DNA from: an uncultured Candidatus Saccharibacteria bacterium
Lineage (GTDB): Bacteria; Patescibacteriota; Saccharimonadia; Saccharimonadales; Saccharimonadaceae
Assembly (NCBI GenBank): GCA_937902295.1
Contig: CALGUM010000066.1
Span: forward strand, 1 to 17,306
Length of the DNA stretch: 17,306 nt
Direction of reading: 5' to 3'
This document shows, piece by piece, positions 3,150 through 17,306 of this stretch. Position 1 is the stretch's first letter. Each line of letters opens with the position of its first letter. Under the pieces are notes generated by a model, which saw only the letters and a program-made list of their open reading frames with translations, searched no databases and was not told the origin of the DNA. A program made the position numbers and the translations under genes.

Positions 3150-3178
3150 TTGACTACTGAGGGGTGGGACGATATAAT
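3150..3178 (+). promoter_or_regulatory. Sigma-70-type promoter of tRNA-Asn
   Basis: TTGACT at 3150-3155 and a perfect TATAAT at 3173-3178 with a 17-base spacer. Transcription would begin around 3185, a few bases before the mature tRNA. It starts only 5 bases after the preceding stop codon. Confidence 0.85.
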
Positions 3179-3189
3179 ACGACAAGTAA

Positions 3190-3264
3190 TCCCGCGTAGC
3201 TCAGTGGTAGAGCGGTTGGCTGTTAACCAATAGGTCACTGGTTCGAGCCCAGTCGCGGGAGCCA
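3190..3264 (+). tRNA. tRNA-Asn (anticodon GTT), CCA encoded
   Basis: A complete cloverleaf. The acceptor strand TCCCGCG (3190-3196) pairs fully with CGCGGGA (3254-3260), followed by discriminator G3261 and encoded CCA 3262-3264. The anticodon stem GTTGG/CCAAT (3215-3219 / 3227-3231) encloses loop CTGTTAA with anticodon GTT at 3222-3224, which reads Asn codons. The T arm is ACTGG-TTCGAGC-CCAGT. Its 3' end is the sequence that recurs, more or less degraded, after many genes further along. Confidence 0.95.
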
Positions 3265-3396
3265 GACCAAGCAGAGAAAAACGTAGACCTAGTTCCTAGA
3301 CCTACAATAACTTCTCTCCTTGGTCATCCAAGAAAGAATATATAGCAATTACAAGCTACAATGTTGGAACCGTCATAAATGGCGGTTCTTTCATTT
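3265..3396 (+). ncRNA. Structured trailer RNA after tRNA-Asn, copy 1 (with terminator)
   Basis: Starts directly after the tRNA CCA. Helix A: GACCAAG 3265-3271 pairs with CTTGGTC 3319-3325, then a C-C mismatch (3272/3318), then AGAGAA 3273-3278 with TTCTCT 3312-3317. Inside is a hairpin 3283-3305: GTAG/CTAC, an AC/AC internal loop, CTAG/CTAG, loop TTC. Helix B: TAGC 3343-3346 with GCTA 3355-3358 around loop AATTACAA. A Rho-independent terminator follows: GAACCGTC 3367-3374 with GGCGGTTC 3381-3388 and a T-rich tail. The same plan with different paired bases is seen at 9651-9781. It would be co-transcribed with the tRNA. I do not recognise a known RNA family; pairing is by eye. Confidence 0.5.
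3367..3396 (+). terminator. Rho-independent terminator after tRNA-Asn unit
   Basis: Eight-pair stem GAACCGTC/GGCGGTTC (one G-T pair) with loop ATAAAT, followed by TTTCATTTT. Its sequence resembles the terminator of the second structured unit at 9757-9780. Confidence 0.75.
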
Positions 3397-3741: not shown

Positions 3742-4047
3742 TTACTTATTAATTACTAAACTCTCTATATCCCTTATTAGAGGACGAAAGTCTTCGGATT
3801 TTTCGGTTATGAAGTAATGATTTTCAATTCCGTGCTGGCGGCAATCTACCAAACCTTCAGCTTTAAGAACTGTTAACTTCTTGGATAGGGTCACGGCATT
3901 AATATCCGTCATCCTTTTCAGCTCGTTGAATGACTTTTCACCAAAGTTCATTAGCTCATAAAGAATTAACACATTACTAGAGTCGCCAATGATCTTAGCG
4001 ATGCTTTTGGTCTTAACGATTTGTTCTTGACTATATATTGTACGCAT
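3742..4047 (-). CDS. HxlR/ArsR-like winged-helix transcriptional regulator
   Basis: A protein of 101 residues. It follows the HxlR layout: SIAKIIGDSSNVLILYEL (about 15-32), FNELKRMTDINAVTLSKKL (about 40-58, helix-turn-helix), LKAEGLVDCR (about 61-70) and a wing ending in YFITEKSEDFRPLI. HxlR proteins usually carry an N-terminal redox-sensing Cys before this region; none is present here, so an ArsR/PadR-type wHTH is an alternative. It heads a two-gene unit with the small glycine-rich protein and is divergent from the basic protein at 4133. Two TTACTAGT repeats in the intergenic region suggest that it regulates itself. Confidence 0.7.
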   Translation of the reverse strand: MRTIYSQEQIVKTKSIAKIIGDSSNVLILYELMNFGEKSFNELKRMTDINAVTLSKKLTVLKAEGLVDCRQHGIENHYFITEKSEDFRPLIRDIESLVINK

Positions 4048-4422: not shown

Positions 4423-4614
4423 ATGAGTAATACCGAAAATGATCTTCCAGCATCGATAGGTAGACCAGCTACAAGCGCCTTATTGTCTGCAAACATAACG
4501 AGCTTGAAGCAGGTCGCAGATCTGACTGACAAAGAACTGCTCGCGCTTCATGGAGTTGGCCCGAAGGCGGTTAGAATATTGAGAGAGTACATAGAAGAAG
4601 TCCGTGACCTGTAA
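4423..4614 (+). CDS. Small helix-hairpin-helix domain protein (63 residues)
   Basis: The whole protein is one helix-hairpin-helix unit of the type found in RNA polymerase alpha C-terminal-like domains: LPASIGRPATSALLSANI followed by LKQVADLTDKELLALHGVG and PKAVRILREYI. The LHGVGPKAV turn is the typical HhH hairpin that contacts the DNA backbone. It probably binds DNA non-specifically; partner and role are unknown. The second ATG is chosen because of the -10 box position. Its last codons (VRDL plus TAA) are supplied by the gene-end repeat at 4600-4625, so the repeat overlaps the coding region here, while elsewhere it begins at or just after the stop codon. Confidence 0.72.
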   Translation: MSNTENDLPASIGRPATSALLSANITSLKQVADLTDKELLALHGVGPKAVRILREYIEEVRDL

Positions 4615-4625
4615 TCTGAGCCAAG
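4600..4625 (+). repeat. Gene-end repeat, copy 1
   Basis: GTCCGTGACCTG followed by GAGCCAAG. It overlaps the 3' end of the HhH gene and is followed by a terminator hairpin closely resembling the one at 8238-8262. Confidence 0.65.
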
Positions 4626-4631
4626 CATAAG

Positions 4632-4671: not shown

Positions 4672-5388
4672 TTAATATGCATCATTTTTGTAGCGATACT
4701 CTGTTTCTGTCAGGAACGCATGTGAGCCACGAATAAAACCAAGTGTCTCGTCAATATCACCGAAACGCTTGTCTAACACAGAGTACTCATCGGGTGTAAG
4801 CCAGTGATTTGTGTGGGTTTCCGTTTCAATTATCATTGTGCCCTGAGGATTTACTCCGTGTACAAGAATTAAATATTTGTCTTCTAGCATCTCACTGTTT
4901 TCATCGTAATCAAGTTTGTGGTGTACTCCCACGGCTTTCAGTGTAGCGGTGAGCCCAGTTTCTTCCATAAGTTCACGAGCAGCTGCTTCAAGGATTGTCT
5001 CTCCCCAGCGTATTTTACCTGTTGGGAACCCCCAATATCCTGAATAGGGTTGTTTACGACGCTCTTGAAATAGGAATCTTCCATTGCCATCTTCAATACC
5101 GATATCTACCACAAGTTTGGGCTGCTTCTCGATGACGAGTTCTTCGGTGTCCATTCTATTGGCATATTCTTTGCCTTTGCGAGTTAGCTGGTATTTACCG
5201 TACGATTTTGGAGTGTGTTCGACCATGCCGGCTGTTACCAATTTCTTTATATGAAAAGTACCATGGTCATTGCTGAGTTTAGCTGTACGCGCAAGTTCGG
5301 AAAACGAAGAAACTCCTTGTATAAGTAGTGTGCGTAATATAGCCATCTGGGCTTTGTGTGCATTGGCCTCGTACGATTGTCGGGACAT
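4672..5388 (-). CDS. Winged-helix / Nudix hydrolase fusion protein
   Basis: A protein of 238 residues with two domains. Residues 10-80 are an ArsR/MarR-like winged helix (ILRTLLIQGVSSFSELARTA, then FHIKKLVTAGMVEHTP and a wing to about 72). Residues 90-235 are a Nudix domain with a perfect Nudix box at 124-146: G124, E130, R138-E139-L140, E142-E143, G145-L146, which binds Mg2+ and hydrolyses nucleoside-diphosphate-linked substrates. The order is opposite to NrtR, where the Nudix domain comes first and the HTH second. An intact box suggests real hydrolase activity, so this could be a ligand-controlled repressor or a DNA-tethered enzyme. It lies seven bases after the TIM-barrel gene on the same strand but also has its own TATAAT at the start codon. 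Confidence 0.85.
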   Translation of the reverse strand: MSRQSYEANAHKAQMAILRTLLIQGVSSFSELARTAKLSNDHGTFHIKKLVTAGMVEHTPKSYGKYQLTRKGKEYANRMDTEELVIEKQPKLVVDIGIEDGNGRFLFQERRKQPYSGYWGFPTGKIRWGETILEAAARELMEETGLTATLKAVGVHHKLDYDENSEMLEDKYLILVHGVNPQGTMIIETETHTNHWLTPDEYSVLDKRFGDIDETLGFIRGSHAFLTETEYRYKNDAY

Positions 5389-6436: not shown

Positions 6437-6462
6437 AAATCTTGTTTGATAGCAGTTATAAC

Positions 6463-6487
6463 GTTCTCTATCGTAGTGAGCCAAGAG
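6463..6487 (+). repeat. Gene-end repeat, degenerate copy 2
   Basis: Only the right half (GTAGTGAGCCAAGAG) is well kept, and no gene precedes it on this strand. The terminator after it is nearly the same as those at 7152-7182 and 15390-15424, which supports membership. Confidence 0.45.
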
Positions 6488-6560: not shown

Positions 6561-7109
6561 ATGACAAAACCTATAAATATCGCATCAATCGAAAAGGCGA
6601 CAAACAAATCTTGGGATCAATGGGTAAGAGAACTCGATAAGAGTGGTGCACGAGAGTTGTCTCATGCCGACTTAGCGCACAAGCTCAATGACGAGCTTGA
6701 GGGTGAACTTGAAAGTCATGGATGGTGGGCGCAGGGTATTACAGTGGCGTATGAGCAGCATATAGGTAAGCGCGTCCCAGGTCAGTTAGCCAATGGACTA
6801 TTTGAACTAGCTGTATCGAAAACAGCGGCGACTTCACGTAATACATTATTTCCACAACTTGTTGAATGGTTTGAAAATCAAAGTGAATTCAATGGATCCG
6901 CGCCCTTGAAGTCCCGTAGCAGTGAGACTCCCAAGCGCAGCACATGGAGGTGTGACTTTGCTGACGGAAGTAAATTCTCATCAACTGTTGAGGAGAATGG
7001 AGAAAAATCTAAACTTATTCTTTCACACACCGCTGTTCCTACTAAACAAGAAGCCGATGATTGGAAGGATTTTTGGCGCAATACTGCTGAGCAATTGATT
7101 AAACAATAG
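6561..7109 (+). CDS. DUF4287 / SRPBCC-type protein
   Basis: A protein of 182 residues. Residues 10-75 fit DUF4287: KSWDQWVRELDKSGARELSH, then a helix and the hallmark HGWWAQGITVAYEQHIGKR. The C-terminal half begins with AVSKTAA and ends with the pattern CDFADGSKF, LILSHTAVPTKQEADDWKDFW, as in family members where DUF4287 is followed by an AHSA1/SRPBCC domain. The middle (85-125) is shorter than usual, so the SRPBCC fold may be trimmed. The family has no firmly known function. The unit has its own -10 box and ends in a gene-end repeat whose first G is the last base of the TAG stop codon. Confidence 0.72.
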   Translation: MTKPINIASIEKATNKSWDQWVRELDKSGARELSHADLAHKLNDELEGELESHGWWAQGITVAYEQHIGKRVPGQLANGLFELAVSKTAATSRNTLFPQLVEWFENQSEFNGSAPLKSRSSETPKRSTWRCDFADGSKFSSTVEENGEKSKLILSHTAVPTKQEADDWKDFWRNTAEQLIKQ

Positions 7110-7134
7110 TCTTTGATCTGTAAGCGGAGCCAAG
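7109..7134 (+). repeat. Gene-end repeat, copy 3
   Basis: GTCTTTGATCTGTAAG followed by CGGAGCCAAG. Its first base is the last base of the TAG stop of the DUF4287 gene. Confidence 0.65.
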
Positions 7135-7151
7135 ACAAGATATTTGAACAG

Positions 7152-7182
7152 AAGTCCAGTAAGTATACACGCTGGACTTTTT
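7152..7182 (+). terminator. Terminator after DUF4287 gene
   Basis: AAGTCCAG 7152-7159 pairs with CTGGACTT 7172-7179, running into a T tract. The -10 box of the next gene begins three bases later. Confidence 0.75.
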
Positions 7183-7184
7183 GT

Positions 7185-7190
7185 TATACT
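7185..7190 (+). promoter_or_regulatory. -10 box (TATACT) for NTF2-like protein
   Basis: TATACT eight bases before the ATG at 7199, immediately behind the upstream terminator, leaving no free -35 region outside the hairpin. Confidence 0.5.
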
Positions 7191-7198
7191 GATAAATA

Positions 7199-7588
7199 AT
7201 GATAACAAATATTCCTGACAATTGTGGCAACTCGCCTCGTTCACTTCTTGCGATAGAAGTAGCAGTCAATCTAGCTTCTAGTGAATACCATAAACTAGAT
7301 CCTCTACTGGCAGAAGATTTTACGTGGAGTGTTGCAGGGAGCGATAAAAAAATACTGAAATCTGAATTAAACTCATTTATGAATAAGGCAAATCAATCAG
7401 ATGTTCATATAGATAGGTTTGATGTTTTGACTTCAATTTCACACGGCAAATATGCAGCGGTAAGTAGTTGCGCATATGCGTCTAATGGGTGTATATTCAA
7501 TTCTCACGACCTGTATGAATTTACGAGTGCCGGTGGCTCGGCGAAGCTTTTGAAAGTAACGTCATATATAGTTGATGTTAAACAATAG
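7199..7588 (+). CDS. NTF2-like / SnoaL-like small protein
   Basis: A protein of 129 residues with the layout of the cone-shaped NTF2-like fold: N-terminal helices (SLLAIEVAVNLASSEYHKL), then LAEDFTWSVAGSDKKILKSELNSFM, a string of beta strands (VHIDRFDVLTSISHGKYAAVSS) and a final LYEFTSAGGSAKLLKVTSYIV strand pair. Such proteins bind small hydrophobic ligands or act as isomerases or dehydratases; typical catalytic Asp/His positions cannot be assigned here. No signal peptide is seen. It is a single-gene unit with its own -10 box and gene-end repeat. Confidence 0.65.
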   Translation: MITNIPDNCGNSPRSLLAIEVAVNLASSEYHKLDPLLAEDFTWSVAGSDKKILKSELNSFMNKANQSDVHIDRFDVLTSISHGKYAAVSSCAYASNGCIFNSHDLYEFTSAGGSAKLLKVTSYIVDVKQ

Positions 7589-7613
7589 TCCGTGACCCGT
7601 AAGCGGAGCCAAG
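7588..7613 (+). repeat. Gene-end repeat, copy 4
   Basis: GTCCGTGACCCGTAAG followed by CGGAGCCAAG, the copy closest to a consensus. Against the tRNA-Asn 3' end (3240-3264) it matches 16 of 25 positions without gaps, including all of GGAGCCA. Its first G belongs to the stop codon of the NTF2-like gene. Confidence 0.7.
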
Positions 7614-7618
7614 TAGAC

Positions 7619-8188: not shown

Positions 8189-8204
8189 TTAACAAAGTAG
8201 TTGC

Positions 8205-8231
8205 AAACTGCGTTCACTAGCGGGAGCCAGA
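8205..8231 (+). repeat. Gene-end repeat copy 5 / att-like direct repeat (left)
   Basis: Contains CGTTCACTAGCGGGAGCCAG (8211-8230) and A8231. These 21 bases match 9632-9652 at 20 positions, and GCGGGAGCCAGA is identical to the tRNA-Asn 3' end (3255-3266). The terminator after it resembles that of copy 1. Confidence 0.65.
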
Positions 8232-8237
8232 TATAAG

Positions 8238-9555: not shown

Positions 9556-9625
9556 AGCTTTACCTATTAGCTGGTGTTGAACGCAAGAGACTCGCGCAGA
9601 CGAATAGAATCGTTAGAGTGGTATC

Positions 9626-9652
9626 GAAATACGTCCACTAGCGGGAGCCAGA
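9626..9652 (+). repeat. Gene-end repeat copy 6 / att-like direct repeat (right)
   Basis: Contains CGTCCACTAGCGGGAGCCAG (9632-9651). It differs from 8211-8230 at one base and carries the tRNA-Asn 3' end sequence. The second structured unit begins at its right edge, exactly as the first begins after the tRNA CCA. Confidence 0.65.
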
Positions 9653-9781
9653 CTCAGCAGGTAAATACCCAGACCGGGTTCCCTGACCAAAAGTCAGATT
9701 TACCCCTTGAGTCAGACAAAAGTACCAATTATCACCAAAAGGTACAAAACCGATGGAACCGTCCGAAAGGGCGGTTTTTTC
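9651..9781 (+). ncRNA. Structured trailer RNA, copy 2 (with terminator)
   Basis: Same plan as copy 1 with different bases. Helix A: GACTCAG 9651-9657 with TTGAGTC 9707-9713, a C-C mismatch (9658/9706), then GGTAAAT 9660-9666 with ATTTACC 9698-9704. The inner hairpin has CGGG 9675-9678 with CCTG 9682-9685, loop TTC, and the same AC/AC internal loop (9673-9674 / 9686-9687). Helix B: GTACC 9722-9726 with GGTAC 9741-9745, loop starting AATTA. The terminator is GGAACCGTCC with GGGCGGTT and a GAAA loop. An alternative hairpin CTGAC/GTCAG (9683-9687 / 9693-9697) competes with the inner one. There is no tRNA before it, only the 3' end of one. Confidence 0.5.
9757..9780 (+). terminator. Rho-independent terminator of structured copy 2
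   Basis: AACCGTCC 9757-9764 pairs with GGGCGGTT 9769-9776 around a GAAA tetraloop, followed by a T tract. Confidence 0.88.
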
Positions 9782-9824
9782 GTGTCCACCCCTGATATTT
9801 AGTCCTGAAAGCGACCAGTATCCT

Positions 9825-10285: not shown

Positions 10286-10379
10286 ACGCCCCCTTCCTCT
10301 CCCTTGTTGTACTAAAAGTACCTGGAGTGGTGGCAAGGTGGCTTGTTTGACGCAAACAAACACGTACGCAATCTATAAA

Positions 10380-10420
10380 TTAGCACTCTTGACATGAGAT
10401 TGCTAATTTTATACTATACT
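10380..10420 (+). promoter_or_regulatory. CIRCE operator and promoter of hsp20
   Basis: TTAGCACTC (10380-10388), nine-base spacer, GATTGCTAA (10398-10406): the CIRCE inverted repeat with one mismatch to GAGTGCTAA. It is the binding site of the HrcA heat-shock repressor. TTGACA (10389-10394) lies inside the spacer, and two overlapping TATACT boxes (10410-10415, 10415-10420) follow, so bound HrcA would cover the promoter. Confidence 0.85.
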
Positions 10421-10478
10421 AATAGAAGCTTTTATGCTTCTCTGGAAACCATTAATGCAATGATGAAAGGAGAAAATT

Positions 10479-10904
10479 ATGAGCAACCTTGTAAAGTGGG
10501 ATCCGTTTGCAGAACTTTCTGCATTACAAAAACAATTCTTTGGTGATGACTGGATGTCGCCCCTAAAAGGCGTTAACATTCCGACGACTGACGTCTTTAC
10601 TAAAGATAATAACCTTGTGGTTGAGGCGCATCTGCCTAACTTTGAGCAGAAAGATGTCAATATCGAAGTGGAGAACGGTACACTCGTGATTAGTGCCGAA
10701 CGTCACGAAAAAGAGGAAGATAAAGGCAAGCAATACGTTGTGCGTGAAAGCTCAAGTAGCTTCTACCGACGCATTGCACTACCAAAGAGAGCAGACGCTG
10801 ACAAAATCGAGGCACACCTCGATGAGGGAGTCCTAAAAGTGAGCATCCCTCTCACACCACTGCCTGAGCCAAAGAAAATTGCTATCTCTTCGAAGAAGAA
10901 ATAG
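10479..10904 (+). CDS. Hsp20 / alpha-crystallin family small heat-shock protein
   Basis: A protein of 141 residues. The N-terminal arm starts MSNLVKWDPFAELSALQ; the alpha-crystallin domain covers about 33-130, with VFTKDNNLVVEAHLPNFEQ, DVNIEVENGTLVISAER (the typical strand pair) and the conserved A-x-x-x-x-G-V-L motif (AHLDEGVLKVSIP, about 111-123). It ends with the PKKIAIS extension that contains the I-x-I anchor for oligomer assembly. It is an ATP-independent chaperone that holds unfolding proteins in the cytoplasm. It has a strong Shine-Dalgarno AAAGGAGA and a leader of about 50 bases containing a GAAGC/GCTTC hairpin (10425-10440). Control by HrcA through CIRCE is well supported. Confidence 0.95.
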   Translation: MSNLVKWDPFAELSALQKQFFGDDWMSPLKGVNIPTTDVFTKDNNLVVEAHLPNFEQKDVNIEVENGTLVISAERHEKEEDKGKQYVVRESSSSFYRRIALPKRADADKIEAHLDEGVLKVSIPLTPLPEPKKIAISSKKK

Positions 10905-10921
10905 CAGTCGCGCGTTCTAGC

Positions 10922-10955
10922 CTAAAAGGAGGCCTTAAGGCTTCCTTTTAGTTAT
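10922..10955 (+). terminator. Strong terminator after hsp20
   Basis: Near-perfect palindrome: CTAAAAGGA (10922-10930) pairs with TCCTTTTAG (10943-10951) with GGCC/GGCT inner pairing. It could act in both directions. Confidence 0.8.
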
Positions 10956-11004
10956 AAAACCTGATTCAAGATCTGGAATTTGTTAGTTAAACTCCTTTAA
11001 AATG

Positions 11005-11045
11005 AGACACGCCCTAAAACATGCGTTTTGTGTCTTATTTGTCTC
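11005..11045 (+). other. Hairpin with two alternative partners, non-coding
   Basis: AGACAC (11005-11010) pairs with GTGTCT (11030-11035), with AAAAC/GTTTT (11016-11020 / 11025-11029) inside. GAGACA (11004-11009) could instead pair with TGTCTC (11040-11045). The region 10956-11071 otherwise shows nothing to me. Confidence 0.35.
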
Positions 11046-11071
11046 ATCCCGTGCCCCCACCCCTGTGATTG

Positions 11072-11097
11072 TTCCGTGACCTGTATGGTGAGCCAAA
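11072..11097 (+). repeat. Gene-end repeat, copy 7
   Basis: TTCCGTGACCTGTATG followed by GTGAGCCAAA. There is no gene directly before it, but its terminator and the promoter of the next gene follow in the usual order. Confidence 0.6.
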
Positions 11098-11102
11098 CAA
11101 TG

Positions 11103-11177: not shown

Positions 11178-12131
11178 ATGAAAGCAGCAATTATTGATCG
11201 ATATGGCCCACCGGAGCAGTTGCATATAGAGCAGGTAGCGAAACCTACTATTAACGACAGTCAGTTGTTAGTTCAGGTGGTTGCGACAGCAGTTACAGCT
11301 GCAGACGTACGAATACGTGCGGCCAAATTCCCAAAAGGGTTTGGTGCGATAGCCAGGCTTGCTTTTGGCATTCGTGGTCCACGAGCGAAAATATTAGGCA
11401 GCACTTATTCGGGTGTGGTTGTTGCAGCTGGAAAGAGTGTGCCTGAATTTAGCGTTGGTGACGAAGTATGTGGAATGACCGGAGTAAAAATGGGTACCTA
11501 TGCTGAATTTGTTACGGTTAATAACGTAAAGAGTATTGCTAAAAAGCCGGCTAACGTAAGTCATACACATGCAGCAGGTATGCTATTTGGCGGCACAGCG
11601 GCACTGTATTTTTTGCGTGATAAATTGAATATTAAGCAAGGCGAAACTATTCTTATAAATGGTGCTTCTGGGGCAGTGGGCACAAACGCTGTTCAGCTTG
11701 CTAAGCTTTTTGGCGCAACGATTACGGGTGTGACTACTCAAGGTAATGCTGCATTGGTTAAAGAGCTGGGCGCGACAGAAATTATTGACTATACAAAGCA
11801 GGACATAGCTGCAATTGGTAAGAAATTTGACGTGCTGCTAGACACTGAAGGGAACATATCGCCCGAGGCAGCCAAACCATTACTTACTCGTAATGGTAGG
11901 GCTGGATTAATGGTAGCTAGCTTAGGGGAAATGATACGCATGCGCGGGCCTGTTAAAAGTGGCACCGCTACAGAAAAGCGAGAAGATATAGAATATCTAT
12001 TATCACTCATGAAAGACGGAAAGCTTAAGGCGGTTATTGATAGTGAATATACCATTGATCACATTGTTGAAGCGCATCGGCATGTAGATTCTGGCCGTAA
12101 GGTAGGTAGCTGTATAGTAACGCTACGCTAA
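11178..12131 (+). CDS. Zinc-free MDR family NAD(P)-dependent oxidoreductase, paralogue 1
   Basis: A protein of 317 residues with the medium-chain dehydrogenase/reductase layout: an N-terminal GroES-like domain (about 1-125, with VVATAVTAADVRIRAAKFP and GDEVCGMTGVKMGTYAEFV) and a Rossmann domain with NGASGAVGTNAVQLAK starting at 161. The catalytic zinc ligands of alcohol dehydrogenases and the four-Cys structural zinc lobe are absent, so it belongs with quinone oxidoreductase-like enzymes reducing quinones or enones with NAD(P)H. It is clearly paralogous to the gene at 15927. It begins a same-strand block with a 97-residue membrane protein seven bases on and the P-type ATPase beyond. Confidence 0.9.
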   Translation: MKAAIIDRYGPPEQLHIEQVAKPTINDSQLLVQVVATAVTAADVRIRAAKFPKGFGAIARLAFGIRGPRAKILGSTYSGVVVAAGKSVPEFSVGDEVCGMTGVKMGTYAEFVTVNNVKSIAKKPANVSHTHAAGMLFGGTAALYFLRDKLNIKQGETILINGASGAVGTNAVQLAKLFGATITGVTTQGNAALVKELGATEIIDYTKQDIAAIGKKFDVLLDTEGNISPEAAKPLLTRNGRAGLMVASLGEMIRMRGPVKSGTATEKREDIEYLLSLMKDGKLKAVIDSEYTIDHIVEAHRHVDSGRKVGSCIVTLR

Positions 12132-12138
12132 TAAAGAT

Positions 12139-12432
12139 ATGAAAGATTATATTGTAAAACACCGTAAACGTATTGGAATTATTGGTGGATGCATGGCATT
12201 CATAGTCGCGTTAATCTACCTTGCAATTGTGCCTGAAGAGGCGAAGAATGCGAGCGGACTACAAAAAATCATTCTTTTATACGGGCATTCTGTGTGTTGG
12301 ATAGTACTAAGTGTAGCTAGCTTTTTATGGGCGATGACCAATAAGCATATATTGTCGAGTAGTTTGGCATACATAGCCTTGGCAATCTACGCTGTTTTTG
12401 TGGGCACGGTACTGCTTGTCAGTCGCATATAG
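12139..12432 (+). CDS. 97-residue three-helix membrane protein, paralogue 1
   Basis: The basic N-terminus MKDYIVKHRKR is followed by three hydrophobic segments (about 12-30, 50-66, 73-94). The linker VPEEAKNASGLQKIILLYGHS is strongly kept in its partner at 15058 (IPDEASTATGIQKTILIYGHS-like), with the same total length of 97. I recognise no named family. It begins seven bases after the MDR reductase, without a Shine-Dalgarno sequence or a good -10 box of its own, so it is probably read from the same transcript. Confidence 0.78.
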   Translation: MKDYIVKHRKRIGIIGGCMAFIVALIYLAIVPEEAKNASGLQKIILLYGHSVCWIVLSVASFLWAMTNKHILSSSLAYIALAIYAVFVGTVLLVSRI

Positions 12433-12490: not shown

Positions 12491-15016
12491 ATGAAATTTT
12501 ATACACAAACAGTCGAAAACGTTCTTCACCACTTTGCATCATCAGAATCAGGATTATCTGATAACAATTATGCAGTTAATAAGGCAAAATATGGCCGTAA
12601 TATATTAACCATTAAAGGCCGACCGCTGTGGCGAAAGCTTGTTGAGCCATTTGCAAATGTTTTTGTGGCAGTGCTTGGTGTAGCAGCACTGATTAGTATT
12701 GCTACTGGCCATGCGATCGATGCAATTATTGTTACTGCAATAATATTCGTAAGCGCCATTATATATTACATTCAGCAGTTTTCCACCGAGCGGGTACTAA
12801 GGGCATTAAAACAGCACGATGTTCAAAAAGTAAATGTGCGACGTAACGGTAAAGTCATGGAAGTATCCAGCGAAGAACTGGTGCCGGGCGATGTTATTTT
12901 ACTTGGTGAAGGTGAAAAAGTGCCAGCAGATGCTCGCGTAATGCATGCCGAAAACATACGTACTAATGAAGCTATGTTGACTGGTGAGTCGCTACCTGTC
13001 ACAAAGCACGCTCATGCACTTGAAAAAGAGCATCCAGTTTACGAAAGAACAAACATGTTATTTCAAGGGTCATTCGTTGTATCTGGACGAGTGACAGCTG
13101 TAGTGGTGGCAACGGCTGCATCAACTGAGTTTGGGCGTCTAGCCGCCTTAGCGGCACCAACAGATTCTGTAAGCCCAGCTCAGCAAAAAATTGACCAACT
13201 TGTAACACGATTAATATCGGTGATCTCCGTAGTTGTGATTGTAGCGTTTGGTTTGGCATTAGTAAGAGGGATGGAGTTACTCGAATCGTTACGCTTTGTA
13301 TTATCACTGGCAGTTGCTGCTGTTCCTGAAGGATTGCCGGTTGCCGTGACGGTTGTACTAGTGCTAGGGATGCGTAGGTTGGCAAAATATAAAGCACTCA
13401 CTCGTTCAATGAAGGCAATTGAGAACATAGGCATTATTACCACCATTGCCAGTGACAAGACTGGTACACTAACAAAAAATAAGCTCAGTGTACAAGAGTA
13501 TTGGTTGTTACATAGCACCAAAAAACAGGATATGGCACTTTGGGCATCCTTAGTAGTGAATAATACTGGCGGTGCAACAGGCGATCCGCTCGATACGGCA
13601 TTGCATGAATTTGCTAAACAGCATCATGAAGCTAGACCTCACGGTCGCACCTTTACGAACAGTTTTGCATTCGACCAAAGCTTAGCGATGAGTGGCAATG
13701 TGTGGCAAGTGGGGGAGCGATACAACGTAGTTATTAAGGGCGCACCAGAGCGAATTTTGAAAGCATCGTCATTAAATGAGCTTCAGCGCGCTGAGGCCGA
13801 GCATAAGCTAAACCATTTTACGGGTATGGGCTACAGGGTTATTGGTATCGCCGAACATAAAGGAGCCACCACGCCACCATCATCGCTGAGTGAGGTGGGT
13901 GACGACCTACACTTTATTGGATTACTCGCTATTGCCGACGAGCTGCGGCCAGAGGCAGCAAAGGCAATTACTGCCGCTCAGTCTGCGGGCATTACGGTAC
14001 GTATGATAACTGGTGATCACGCTGAAACCGCTTTTGCAATTGGTAAGCAGCTGAGTCTTGTTCATCATCGCGATGAGGTGCTTGACTGCCGTAATCTTGA
14101 ACACATGAGTGACGCTGAGCTTGTTAAAAAGGTAAGAGATATTCGGGTATTCGCACGTGTAGTTCCTGAAGCTAAGCACAGGATACTCGGTGTACTAAAG
14201 ACAGATAACATTACCGCCATGACAGGCGATGGAGTCAACGATGTTCCGGCGCTCACGAACGCACATGTGGGTATTGCAATGGGATCCGGCTCGCAGATTG
14301 CAAAGGAATCAGGCGACATCGTGTTACTCGACGATAATTTTGCAACTATCGTTAGAGCTGTCGAGGGTGGGCGTATTGTGTACGACAACATTCGCCGTAT
14401 GCTGCTGTATATGCTCACAACTACATTAGCAGGGGTTGGAACAATCATGGTTGCAATGCTCAGTGGCTTGCCATTACCGCTTGTGGCCGTACAAATTTTG
14501 TGGATTAATTTAGTGACTGATACTATTTTTGCCATACCACTTGGATTAGAGCCGGCTGAAGAAGATGTGATGCAGCGACCACCGCGGGGAGTTAAGCAGC
14601 CAATCCTGGAGCGTCATATCATTATGCGACTTCTCATTGTGGGTGCAACGATGGCGGCTGTGACGTTGGCTATATTTATATATGCACTCAGTCGTTATTC
14701 ACTTGAGTATGCCCAAACATTGGCATTTGCAGCATTAGTCGTTGCGCAGTGGGCTAATGCAGTAAATGTAAGAAGCGAATTCACCTCGCTGTTTAAGCGT
14801 TTGCGGGTGCCGAATTACGCACTCCTTTTCGGGGCTGGTGTTGCAATACTATTACAACTATTAGTATTGTTCGGTCCTCTTGCGGGTGCTCTATACGTTG
14901 TACCGGTTGATATATATCACCTTGTCGCTGCAGTCGTGTCGGTATCCATTGCCGTAGTGGCCGTTGCTGAGCTGCACAAGTGGTACTGCCGACGGACAGT
15001 ACTCCGAACCTCGTAA
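12491..15016 (+). CDS. P-type (P2A-like) cation-transporting ATPase
   Basis: A protein of 841 residues with all domains: N-terminal cation-ATPase domain, actuator with TGES at 164-167, PEGLP in M4 at 279-283, phosphorylation site DKTGTLT with D322, a short nucleotide domain with KGAPER, hinge TGDGVND at 578-584, and M6 with N673 and D677. The M4 Glu280 and M6 Asn/Asp match calcium site II of SERCA-type pumps. In M5 the SERCA site I residues Asn and Glu are replaced (YMLTTTLAG), as in the one-site SPCA/PMR1 pumps that move Ca2+ or Mn2+. It is therefore most likely a Ca2+/Mn2+ exporter; the ion is inference. Two 97-residue membrane paralogues flank it on either side. Confidence 0.93.
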   Translation: MKFYTQTVENVLHHFASSESGLSDNNYAVNKAKYGRNILTIKGRPLWRKLVEPFANVFVAVLGVAALISIATGHAIDAIIVTAIIFVSAIIYYIQQFSTERVLRALKQHDVQKVNVRRNGKVMEVSSEELVPGDVILLGEGEKVPADARVMHAENIRTNEAMLTGESLPVTKHAHALEKEHPVYERTNMLFQGSFVVSGRVTAVVVATAASTEFGRLAALAAPTDSVSPAQQKIDQLVTRLISVISVVVIVAFGLALVRGMELLESLRFVLSLAVAAVPEGLPVAVTVVLVLGMRRLAKYKALTRSMKAIENIGIITTIASDKTGTLTKNKLSVQEYWLLHSTKKQDMALWASLVVNNTGGATGDPLDTALHEFAKQHHEARPHGRTFTNSFAFDQSLAMSGNVWQVGERYNVVIKGAPERILKASSLNELQRAEAEHKLNHFTGMGYRVIGIAEHKGATTPPSSLSEVGDDLHFIGLLAIADELRPEAAKAITAAQSAGITVRMITGDHAETAFAIGKQLSLVHHRDEVLDCRNLEHMSDAELVKKVRDIRVFARVVPEAKHRILGVLKTDNITAMTGDGVNDVPALTNAHVGIAMGSGSQIAKESGDIVLLDDNFATIVRAVEGGRIVYDNIRRMLLYMLTTTLAGVGTIMVAMLSGLPLPLVAVQILWINLVTDTIFAIPLGLEPAEEDVMQRPPRGVKQPILERHIIMRLLIVGATMAAVTLAIFIYALSRYSLEYAQTLAFAALVVAQWANAVNVRSEFTSLFKRLRVPNYALLFGAGVAILLQLLVLFGPLAGALYVVPVDIYHLVAAVVSVSIAVVAVAELHKWYCRRTVLRTS

Positions 15017-15045
15017 ACATTTCCACCGCTGCATTTCAATTAATT

Positions 15046-15051
15046 TATAAT
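15046..15051 (+). promoter_or_regulatory. -10 box (TATAAT) for membrane protein paralogue 2
   Basis: Perfect TATAAT six bases before the ATG at 15058; it is why that ATG is preferred over upstream in-frame codons. Confidence 0.6.
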
Positions 15052-15057
15052 CAGTAT

Positions 15058-15351
15058 ATGAAAAGTTATCTCGGAAAGCACGATAGGGCACTGAGCACTA
15101 TTGGAGCATTGATTGCTCTTGTCATTGCAATAATTTATTTGAAAGTTATACCGGATGAAGCATCAACTGCTACTGGGATTCAAAAAACAATTCTTATATA
15201 CGGGCACTCCCTGTGTTGGATTTTGTTGAGCGGAGCAAGTATAGTGTGGGCAATAATAAAAAACCATAAACTGTCGAAATTTTTGGCGTGTGCAGCATTA
15301 GCTACGTACATCATATTTGTAGGTACATTGCTGACCACAAAGTTTCTCTAA
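15058..15351 (+). CDS. 97-residue three-helix membrane protein, paralogue 2
   Basis: The same length and topology as the protein at 12139: basic start MKSYLGKHDRA, three hydrophobic segments, and the shared linker around TGIQKTILIYGHSLCWILL. The frame is open upstream to 14980, but those codons overlap the end of the ATPase gene and the -10 box, and the paralogue also starts at this Met. Unlike paralogue 1, it has its own promoter and a gene-end repeat two bases after the stop. Its position right after the ATPase raises the possibility of a small partner subunit, but this is inference from position alone. Confidence 0.8.
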   Translation: MKSYLGKHDRALSTIGALIALVIAIIYLKVIPDEASTATGIQKTILIYGHSLCWILLSGASIVWAIIKNHKLSKFLACAALATYIIFVGTLLTTKFL

Positions 15352-15352
15352 G

Positions 15353-15378
15353 GTCCGTGACCCGGAAACGGAGCCAAG
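15353..15378 (+). repeat. Gene-end repeat, copy 8
   Basis: GTCCGTGACCCGGAAAC followed by GGAGCCAAG, one base after the TAA of membrane paralogue 2. It is nearly the same as the copy at 7588. Confidence 0.68.
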
Positions 15379-15389
15379 AGTATGCAGCA

Positions 15390-15926: not shown

Positions 15927-16877
15927 ATGAAAGTAGTCATAGCCGATAGCTACGGCGGTCCGGAGGTTTTGCATATCGTAAATGCTCCAAGTCCATCTAT
16001 CGGGGCAAACGACATTTTAGTACGAGTGAAAGCGTTCGCAGTCACTGCTGCCGATTCTCGAATCAGAGGAGCTCGATTCCCTCGAGGGTTTGGTTTTCTA
16101 GCGCGATTATTCTTTGGCTTACGCAAACCAAGAATAAAAATTCTTGGCTCAACATATTCCGGTGTAGTTGAGCAGGTGGGGAGTAGCCATACGCAGTTTG
16201 AAGTTGGCGACGAAGTCTGTGGCATGACGGGCGCAAAAATGGGTACCTACGCAGAGTTTATTAAGGTTACTAAGTTTAAAAGCATTACTAAAAAACCGAG
16301 TACAGTTAGCCACGAAGATGCTGCTGGATTGCTATTTGGCGGTACTGCGGCGCTCTATTTTATTCGTGATAAGCTTCTCGTTAAAAAAAATGACACAGTC
16401 GTTATCAACGGCGCCTCCGGTGCTGTCGGTACGAACGCTGTGCAATTAGCTAAGTATTATGGTGGAAAAGTTACAGGTGTAACAAGTACAAGTAATGAAA
16501 AGTTAGTCCGAGAACTTGGTGCAAGCTATATTCTAGATTATACAAAACAAGACTTAGTAACTTCGGGTCAGAAATTTGAGGTTTTGCTAGACACAGTCGG
16601 CAATATTAGCTCAACTACTGCAGAGAAGCTGCTGACCAAAAACGGAAGAGCGGGGCTTATGGTAGCTGGGCTATATGAAACATTACGATCCCGTGGCCCG
16701 GTTAAAACAGGTACGTCCACCGAAAGAAAAGACGATATCGATTTTTTACTCAAACTCACAGAGCAAGGCGAGCTCAAAGTTGTAATTGATAGAGTCTACG
16801 AGTTAAATAGGATTGCAGATGCACACAATTACGTTGATGCTGGAAAAAAGGTAGGTAACGTGATCGTTCGCCTGTAA
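15927..16877 (+). CDS. Zinc-free MDR family NAD(P)-dependent oxidoreductase, paralogue 2
   Basis: A protein of 316 residues, alignable end to end with the product of 11178. Shared stretches include GDEVCGMTGAKMGTYAEF, FGGTAALYF followed by RDKL, NGASGAVGTNAVQLAK with G162 at the same number, LDYTKQD, and NGRAGLMVA. Zinc ligands are missing here too, so the same quinone/enone reductase class applies. Codon choice differs clearly between the two, so the duplication is not recent. It has its own -10 box. Its 3' neighbour is the convergent DedA gene; the 48-base gap has a short AAG/CTT hairpin before a T-run. Confidence 0.9.
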   Translation: MKVVIADSYGGPEVLHIVNAPSPSIGANDILVRVKAFAVTAADSRIRGARFPRGFGFLARLFFGLRKPRIKILGSTYSGVVEQVGSSHTQFEVGDEVCGMTGAKMGTYAEFIKVTKFKSITKKPSTVSHEDAAGLLFGGTAALYFIRDKLLVKKNDTVVINGASGAVGTNAVQLAKYYGGKVTGVTSTSNEKLVRELGASYILDYTKQDLVTSGQKFEVLLDTVGNISSTTAEKLLTKNGRAGLMVAGLYETLRSRGPVKTGTSTERKDDIDFLLKLTEQGELKVVIDRVYELNRIADAHNYVDAGKKVGNVIVRL

Positions 16878-16925
16878 GTGTTGGTGACCTATGCTCAAGG
16901 CCAGGATAAGTAAATCAACAAGAAG

Positions 16926-17256
16926 CTAGACTTTTTTGTTTCTGCTTCGGCTTTTTAGTCGCAATCGTTTAACTACGAAGTATCCAGCTCCTAAAATAAT
17001 CACTGCAATAACCAAATATTGAAATAGGCTTACATATTCTTCGACTAGATGAAAGTTTTCTCCGAGTATGAAACCAAGGCCGATAAGGACGCTATTCCAG
17101 ATCAAACTTCCAGCGGCTGTGTAGACAATAAATAGTGCTATGTTCATACGTTCGATCCCTGCCGGAATTGATATTAAACTGCGAAATATGGGTATCATTC
17201 TTCCGAAAAAAACAGTTTTGATTTCGTGTTTTACGAACCACGCTTCGGTTTTATCG
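16926..17256 (-). CDS. DedA family membrane protein, C-terminal part (5' end missing)
   Basis: About 110 residues of genuine sequence, starting at the Asp encoded by 17255-17253. The stretch GRMIPIFRSLISIPAGIERM and then YTAAGSLIWNSVLIGLG is the hallmark C-terminal region of DedA (SNARE-associated/VTT) proteins, with the conserved Arg residues and IPAG turn. Members work as undecaprenyl-phosphate or lipid flippases in the cytoplasmic membrane. A last hydrophobic helix (YLVIAVIILGAGYFVV) and a basic tail follow. The frame seems to continue to a Met at 17273, but those first residues (MCSSDL) are translated adapter, so the gene is truncated by the contig end. Confidence 0.88.
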
Positions 17257-17306
17257 AGATCGGAAGAGCACACGTCTGAACTCCAGTCACACAGTGATCT
17301 CGTATG
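17257..17306 (+). other. Illumina TruSeq adapter read-through (not genomic)
   Basis: AGATCGGAAGAGC begins at 17257 and the standard index-adapter sequence continues to 17290. A six-base index ACAGTG lies at 17291-17296, then ATCTCGTATG to the end. This is the known layout of the TruSeq index adapter; the index reads as ACAGTG. Untrimmed reads were assembled into the contig end. Confidence 0.98.

Follow-up and report, generated by a model that had tools for sequence, protein, structure and literature searches.

A folded element behind tRNA-Asn in Saccharibacteria, probably the left-end module of serine-recombinase elements

The staphylococcal cassette chromosome (SCC) is inserted by a large serine recombinase (LSR), CcrAB, at a single target, the 3′ end of rlmH, and forms composite tandem elements. 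Tycheposons are tRNA-anchored cargo islands based on tyrosine recombinases. Integron arrays consist of small cassettes in one orientation at one locus, which are exchanged with exact ends; IntI is encoded beside attI, and each cassette has a folded attC. A further kind of element, the tRNA 3′ external transcribed spacer (3′ETS) RNAs, lies directly after the 3′ end of a tRNA, is cut from the precursor and base-pairs with a target. In Saccharibacteria, which are very small bacteria, gene acquisition is poorly understood.

The nearest known system to the locus reported here is, going by the parts of its description used here, the ssrA islands of Dehalococcoides (McMurdie et al. 2011, PMC3146451). 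These parts describe tandem serine-recombinase islands at the 3′ end of a stable-RNA gene, with short direct repeats of that gene as their bounds. The integrase lies beside attL, which its 3′ end overlaps, and some islands are without an integration module; a tRNA lies inside the integration module, and reductive dehalogenases are carried as cargo. SCC is named beside the ssrA islands in the same source (PMC3146451).

The window analysed here is a stretch of 17,306 nucleotides from an uncultured Candidatus Saccharibacteria bacterium (contig CALGUM010000066.1). Behind its tRNA-Asn gene lies a structured element that we call S, with parts named D1, H2, terminator and D2; we use att for recombination sites with a GAGCCA core. 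A first-pass annotation of this DNA had proposed a possible new structured RNA directly behind tRNA-Asn. We confirm the observation behind this proposal and find its interpretation partly supported: more than simply an RNA gene after tRNA-Asn, S is probably the left-end module of LSR mobile elements that insert at the GGAGCCA end of tRNA-Asn, and its older copies would be displaced as an array builds up.

The structured element and its family

In the window, tRNA-Asn (GTT) occupies positions 3190–3264 of the plus strand, as do all parts of S and all att sites given below, and ends in GGAGCCA, the presumed attB core. It is preceded at 3150–3178 by a sigma-70-like promoter (TTGACT-17-TATAAT; a consensus match only), and a consensus scan lists no plus-strand promoter-like site between this promoter and position 3966, including none inside copy A of S. 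Copy A starts with D1 (3265–3325), two stacked helices of 7 and 6 pairs that close an inner hairpin with the motif GACCTAGTTCCTAGACC. Hairpin H2 (TAGC-AATTACAA-GCTA, 3343–3358) and an intrinsic terminator (GGAACCGTC...GGCGGTTCTTTCATTTT, 3366–3396) follow. The first-pass annotation had ended the element here, at 3396, but the conserved unit continues to about 3480 with D2 (3397 to approximately 3480), in which a T-arm-like CTGGTTCGAACCCAG and then GGAGCAAGCA precede a second GACC..GTTCC..GACC motif. Copy B, at 9651–9783, comprises D1 (GACTCAG..TTGAGTC and GGTAAAT/ATTTACC, 9651–9713), H2 (GTACC/GGTAC, 9722–9745) and the terminator GGAACCGTCCGAAAGGGCGGTTTTTTC (9755–9783).

Both copies fold far better than shuffled sequence (copy A, 3265–3394, z = −7.24; copy B, 9651–9783, z = −7.37; for each, 0 of 200 dinucleotide shuffles fold as well). 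The seven-pair helix, the second helix, the small hairpin with a loop beginning AATTA and the GGAACCGTC terminator are present in both, as described. Other details were in need of correction. Copy A does start exactly after a tRNA end, that of tRNA-Asn, but copy B follows a tRNA-like end, CACTAGCGGGAGCCA, at which no tRNA is called. The C-C mismatch said to separate the helices is replaced in copy B by a 2×2 CA/CC interior loop, and the CGGG/CCTG pairing assigned to its inner part is not the best fold there, since the minimum-energy fold has two small hairpins, ACCC/GGGT and CTGAC/GTCAG.

Rfam has no match for S: against the Rfam 15 families at the curated gathering score, only tRNAs match, and permissive scans score far below gathering. 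The search for further homologues that had been suggested did find them. A first covariance model, built from 5 copies, matches 15 of the 101 genomes of the family of genome G046 at at least 43 bits, and a second, built from 17 copies, matches 43 of 392 genomes of the class at at least 45 bits. In the latter scan 48 genomes pass an E-value of 1e-4, five of them only at 30–35 bits. The 349 class genomes without S at 45 bits under strict filters count against the left-end reading. In a phylum sample of 379 genomes, strong matches occur only in four genomes already found by the class scan, and the remaining eight matches, at most 35.4 bits, are taken as noise. Both of these large scans used strict filters, so weak matches are lost. 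Model matches of about 20–35 bits were taken as chance: the phylum sample has scores as high as 35.4 bits in genomes absent from the class-scan list, and the two matches that we inspected, L111 and L112, are without GAGCCA. L111–L114 were left out of the covariation counts. Among viral contigs, 65 stretches matching GGAGCCAGACNNAGCAG have no S-like layout (flanks and folds inspected by eye), and one exact terminator pattern has no match. A scan of genomes with the upstream serine hydrolase alone found nothing; an alignment query in the genome scan found five loci. The named relatives of this hydrolase belong to Saccharibacteria, in agreement with the origin of the window.

The alignment of S draws on 38 sources, which gave 40 rows, 39 of them distinct after one duplicate. 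GAGCCA stands immediately before S in all 40 aligned rows. In 26 of the 39 retrieved copies zero bases separate tRNA-Asn from S (the tRNA was called by script in 25; in the 26th, G026, it was clipped by the script window and seen separately), and the other 13 follow other att or tRNA-like ends in GAGCCA. Just behind S in L103 and L174, some 270 nt from its beginning, lies an inverted repeat, AGCACTC-N9-GAGTGCT, which we take to be CIRCE/HrcA-like.

Covariation over the 39 distinct rows bears out the claim that the helices are kept through compensatory change. Standard pairs fill 92.2% of pair cells (shuffled mean 81.9%), and both sides change in 17 of 31 pairs (12.5 in shuffles, with 0 of 500 shuffles as high); double-change cells number 116 versus 41 in shuffles. 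When partners are slid as a control, pairing falls to 33–50%. The first helix, which is anchored by the tRNA end, has 7 double-change pairs. Since the alignment was fitted to the structure and the rows are related, both of which favour this result, the shuffle counts overstate the case. The H2 stem is kept with many different sequences, and ACAA occurs in the loop of 18 of the 35 hairpins printed.

These patterns bear on the idea that S acts in trans or in immunity as an RNA that, in the manner of tRNA 3′ETS RNAs, is released from the tRNA-Asn precursor by cutting and is made only while the element adjoins the tRNA. We consider this unlikely. It would fit the strict position after CCA in 26 of 39 copies, the structure, which is richer than that of a terminator, and the lack of any listed promoter-like site inside S in the window. 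However, displaced copies are not less paired: 11 of 13 have 12–13 of 13 pairs (p = 0.34). The relaxed constraint that a pure trailer role would predict for these copies was thus not found, and as they presumably lie beyond the reach of the tRNA promoter, their pairing also counts against the left-end reading.

Cassette arrays, trailers and the linked recombinase

Along the window the tRNA end recurs as GAGCCA after TCCGTGACCYGTAANCG or another arm, dividing the sequence into eight att-bounded segments and an open ninth, an integron-like row. Segment 1, which encodes a small protein, an HxlR-type regulator and an HhH-like protein, ends at the att site 4597–4626 (GAGCCA at 4618), and segment 2, with NUDIX and PRAI-like genes, at 6457–6486 (6478). 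Three further segments follow: segment 3 (182 aa) ends at 7106–7135 (7127), the 486-bp cassette 4 (129 aa) at 7585–7614 (7606) and segment 5 (133 aa) at 8203–8232 (8224). Segment 6, with a 425-aa gene, ends at the att half with the tRNA-like end before copy B (9624–9650; GAGCCA at 9645). Segment 7 ends at 11069–11098 (11090), after hsp20, and segment 8, encoding a zinc-type alcohol dehydrogenase family protein and a P-type ATPase, at 15350–15379 (15371). The sites at 6478 and 9645 fall below the threshold of the site matrix used later. The cassette cargo of the window comprises NUDIX, HxlR, hsp20, alcohol-dehydrogenase-family and P-type ATPase proteins together with small unknown proteins.

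Further observations concern the later part of this row. Nearby cassettes contain similar-looking protein pairs, of the alcohol-dehydrogenase family (11178–12131 and 15927–16877) and of small membrane proteins (12139–12432 and 14980–15351), as if cassette content had been acquired twice. A further cassette boundary may lie at about 16880–16940, where a T-rich stretch comes after a decayed att-like site, GTGACCTATGCTCAAGGCCAGG. At the end of the window (17257–17306), an assembly artefact beginning AGATCGGAAGAGCACACGTC, presumably Illumina TruSeq adapter sequence, cuts into a VTT-domain reading frame (16926–17273).

Similar arrays lie behind tRNA-Asn in relatives, with 56 sites on the tRNA strand in 23 stretches and 0 on the minus strand, which served as a control; the site matrix was partly trained on the same arrays, so the 56 are partly built in and a few are doubtful. 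With one mismatch allowed, an att pattern scan is noisy (27 matches, in 15 of 101 genomes, versus 12 in a reversed control), and we relied on its 17 exact matches among the 27 and on shared cassettes. Cassettes have been exchanged between genomes, some of them with exact GAGCCA ends. The 486-bp cassette (7126–7611) is also present in G162 (93%) and G026, and the longer stretch 6478–7613 matches G026 at 19657–20792 with 93.6% identity. Positions 10376–11096 are common to G115 (94%) and G085 (91%), and a 686-bp cassette opens the array behind tRNA-Asn in G370 and has an interior place in G115 (94%). Among 30 shared blocks of at least 300 bases and at least 80% identity, 9 end at the core in both genomes, versus 0.008 expected under independent placement; 2 of these 9 also start at a core, and the starts of the two G162 cassette blocks coincide with a core that differs by one base. 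The other 21 blocks have no core end in both genomes, which counts against the left-end reading.

Comparison of trailers indicates what an insertion may do to the tRNA gene. Behind tRNA-Asn, G108 and G071 have TGAAA, a hairpin and a T run, and no second site was found in the next 20 kb. In G046, S adjoins the tRNA, and 23 kb further on the last att site is followed by a trailer of the TGAAA type (TGAAATGACACCCCC...GGGTGTTTTTTCAT); the arrangement in G120 is similar, with a changed core. Four of the 23 stretches share a flanking gene, whose distance from tRNA-Asn is about 6 kb in G120, 12.5 kb in G003, 23 kb in G046 and 35 kb in G115. The plain trailer in relatives and the displaced trailer in G046 together suggest that insertion parts the tRNA from its terminator, for which, judged from sequence, the left end of the element seems to supply a replacement trailer and terminator. 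In the window, terminator-like hairpins are listed just after 7606, 8224 and 11090, and at the other sites hairpin-like sequence was seen by eye only. Other elements supply an apparently simple hairpin and the S family a large conserved module.

S is linked to one family of recombinases. Large serine recombinases occur near the tRNA-proximal end in G003, G026, G046, G115 and G162, and both of the relatives' recombinases that we tested have Resolvase, Recombinase and zinc-ribbon domains. In the class scan of 392 genomes, 16 LSR loci cover 80% or more of the G026 enzyme with an identity of at least 66%. Fourteen of these are on the same contig as an S, 0.5–7.5 kb away and always convergent; in G212 the S is on another contig, and G075 is without S. 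At an identity of at least 60%, S is present in 15 of 18 genomes with the LSR (Fisher p = 2e-13), a count that leaves out four LSR fragments (in G106, G002, G279 and G050, of which G002 and G279 carry S). The three LSR genomes without S speak against the left-end reading, as does the lack of a recombinase among the 20 reading frames tested in the window.

Three loci add observations of their own. The G046 element carries type I restriction genes and codes for a terminase large subunit, a ParB/methyltransferase protein and an ATPase taken here for a metal transporter. In G003 (L095, oriented 27–1493), the LSR reading frame crosses the trailer and attL and extends into the antisense of tRNA-Asn. 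In the viral contig IMGVR_UViG_3300048586_000823 (L211, reverse strand near 5108), a right-end att is joined directly to a decayed S-like left end, with an LSR and an ABC-F-like gene, named from its sequence, beside the joint. This S does not rise above noise in model score and the contig has no terminal repeat; the joint is a possible attP of a free element, and a free circle or a tandem insertion would both fit.

It is very unlikely that S is instead the host's own tRNA-Asn trailer, behind which mobile elements merely landed. Although most retrieved copies do lie directly behind tRNA-Asn, relatives have the different, TGAAA-hairpin trailer, S recurs behind displaced att sites, and the link to one LSR family is strong. 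Furthermore, the type-B S that is displaced in the window adjoins the tRNA in G219. The small-cassette array and the folded element beside a joint could, on the other hand, recall an integron-type system in which S is an attC-like, folded single-strand recombination site. We regard this as highly improbable, because most listed array sites lack S: it stands behind 15 of the 56 and is missing from 41, and sites without it bound cassettes with exact ends. The domains of the two tested recombinases also argue against an integron-type system, as do Phage_integrase matches, which number 1–2 per genome in 9 genomes and lie outside the arrays in the 8 for which arrays were retrieved.

Possible functions of the element

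The strand on which stems are maintained can be read from the ratio of G-U to A-C cells. In the terminator stem it is 68:2, and the terminator hairpin, on this measure, acts as RNA. The D1 stems show no sign of selection on the tRNA strand alone (22:18 in the outer stem and 25:20 in the inner), which counts against the left-end reading; as few independent events lie behind these cells, however, the test says only that an RNA role of D1 is unproven.

The D1 motif, GACC-NN-GTTCC-NN-GACC, comes again in D2, some 175 nt downstream and in the same sequence type as in D1, and in many copies D2 also has a T-arm-like stretch and a GGAGCA core-like stretch. The conservation of D2 beyond the terminator means that termination alone leaves S unexplained, a further difficulty for the left-end reading. 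Over 7 genomes, a strict form of the motif gives a single match in each of 6, every time within S, and none in G279. Moreover, a 15-mer of the D1 loop, in a matrix trained on 37 of the 39 copies, resembles the right-end att arm, with the same register in 29 of 29 arms and p < 0.01 against random 30-mers in 17 of them; because the arms are related and do not amount to 29 tests, this likeness is suggestive only. In G046, for example, the loop reads TAGTTCCTAGACCTG and the arm TAGTTCCGTGACCTG. Together with the T-arm-like and core-like stretches in D2, it raises the possibility that S stems from a duplicated att sequence, and S may still bind the recombinase.

The lack of strand bias in the long stem, combined with a loop like the other att arm, makes a DNA role of this stem possible. 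It is conceivable, though not probable, that S as a whole acts as DNA. On this view D1 and D2 would contain recombinase-arm-like sites (GTTCC-NN-GACC) next to attP; through binding of the LSR or a partner these would control integration or excision, and the trailer role would be incidental except for the terminator. The register of the loop and arm, the recurrence of the motif in D2, its occurrence inside S and the near-equal G-U and A-C counts of the first helix would all be in keeping with this. However, the compensatory changes in D1 and the varied yet paired H2 stems are typical of a folded RNA and would not be needed in a duplex binding site, and the match of the tRNA T-arm to the motif has only p = 0.20.

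We keep to the reading of S as the left-end module of LSR elements, under which the following course of events can be proposed. An LSR would insert the element at the GGAGCCA end of the tRNA-Asn gene, and the insertion would keep the tRNA intact, sever its own terminator and put S in place. S would then be transcribed from the tRNA promoter as the 3′ trailer of the tRNA, ending at the intrinsic terminator. Later insertions would move cassettes and earlier S copies further from the tRNA and so produce the integron-like array, in which copy B of the window would be a displaced S, the mark of an older insertion. The sequences themselves show the position of S, its family, the covariation, the link to the LSR, the differing trailer in relatives and the exchange of cassettes; the identity of the acting recombinase, like the transcription of S and its release from the tRNA by cutting, is an inference. 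The D1/D2 motif may plausibly serve a second function, in recombination or in controlling it. Quite unlikely, by our estimate, is an extended form in which S is an integration-gated RNA without its own promoter, made only as the newest insertion behind the tRNA-Asn promoter, and reports or enforces that state; it might, for example, block the recombinase, whose convergent gene is nearby, or exclude a second insertion, and would fall silent once displaced.

With 43 of 392 class genomes carrying it, S can serve as a marker of a cassette-array system in Saccharibacteria. It also opens two questions to direct test. One is how tRNA function is preserved when an element invades the tRNA gene; the other is whether the tRNA promoter, borrowed by an element, lets that element sense its own integration.

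Comparison with known systems

No such system in Saccharibacteria was found in the literature, judged by titles or the beginnings of abstracts among the matches listed, and the term 'serine recombinase' is absent from the part of the text of PMC13059738 that was available. Like the ssrA islands, the locus has tandem segments in one orientation that are bounded by direct repeats of the 3′ end of the target, and, near the attL end, an LSR that combines Resolvase, Recombinase and zinc-ribbon domains, here in relatives and with none found in the window; the overlap of the G003 LSR reading frame with attL resembles that of dsiB in those islands. The target, however, is tRNA-Asn, as opposed to ssrA (tmRNA) or the rlmH of SCC, and segments are as small as 486 bp. 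The left-end element is structured, and no such element is mentioned for the ssrA islands in the parts of their description used here (PMC3146451).

With SCC, the locus shares an LSR, one target at a gene 3′ end and composite tandem elements. We know of no structured trailer in SCC. The rows of small cassettes in one orientation at one locus, with exact-end exchange, are like those of integrons; unlike integrons, no IntI was found beside the arrays, the att core is the 3′ end of a tRNA and the recombinase is of the LSR type. Most sites here also lack an attC-like fold, as judged from S (present after 15 of 56). Similarly to tRNA 3′ETS RNAs, S lies directly after the mature tRNA 3′ end in 26 of 39 copies, and cutting would be expected by analogy, but S is element-borne, long and covarying and has its own terminator. 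Tycheposons are likewise tRNA-anchored cargo islands; the recombinase here is of the serine type, and S is absent from tycheposons as far as we know. New, as far as seen, are the target, tRNA-Asn, the very small size of the cassettes and the conserved, folded module at the left end. Serine-recombinase islands in tandem at stable-RNA genes were already known, whereas a left-end module of this conserved and folded kind, taking over a tRNA trailer, has to our knowledge not been described before.
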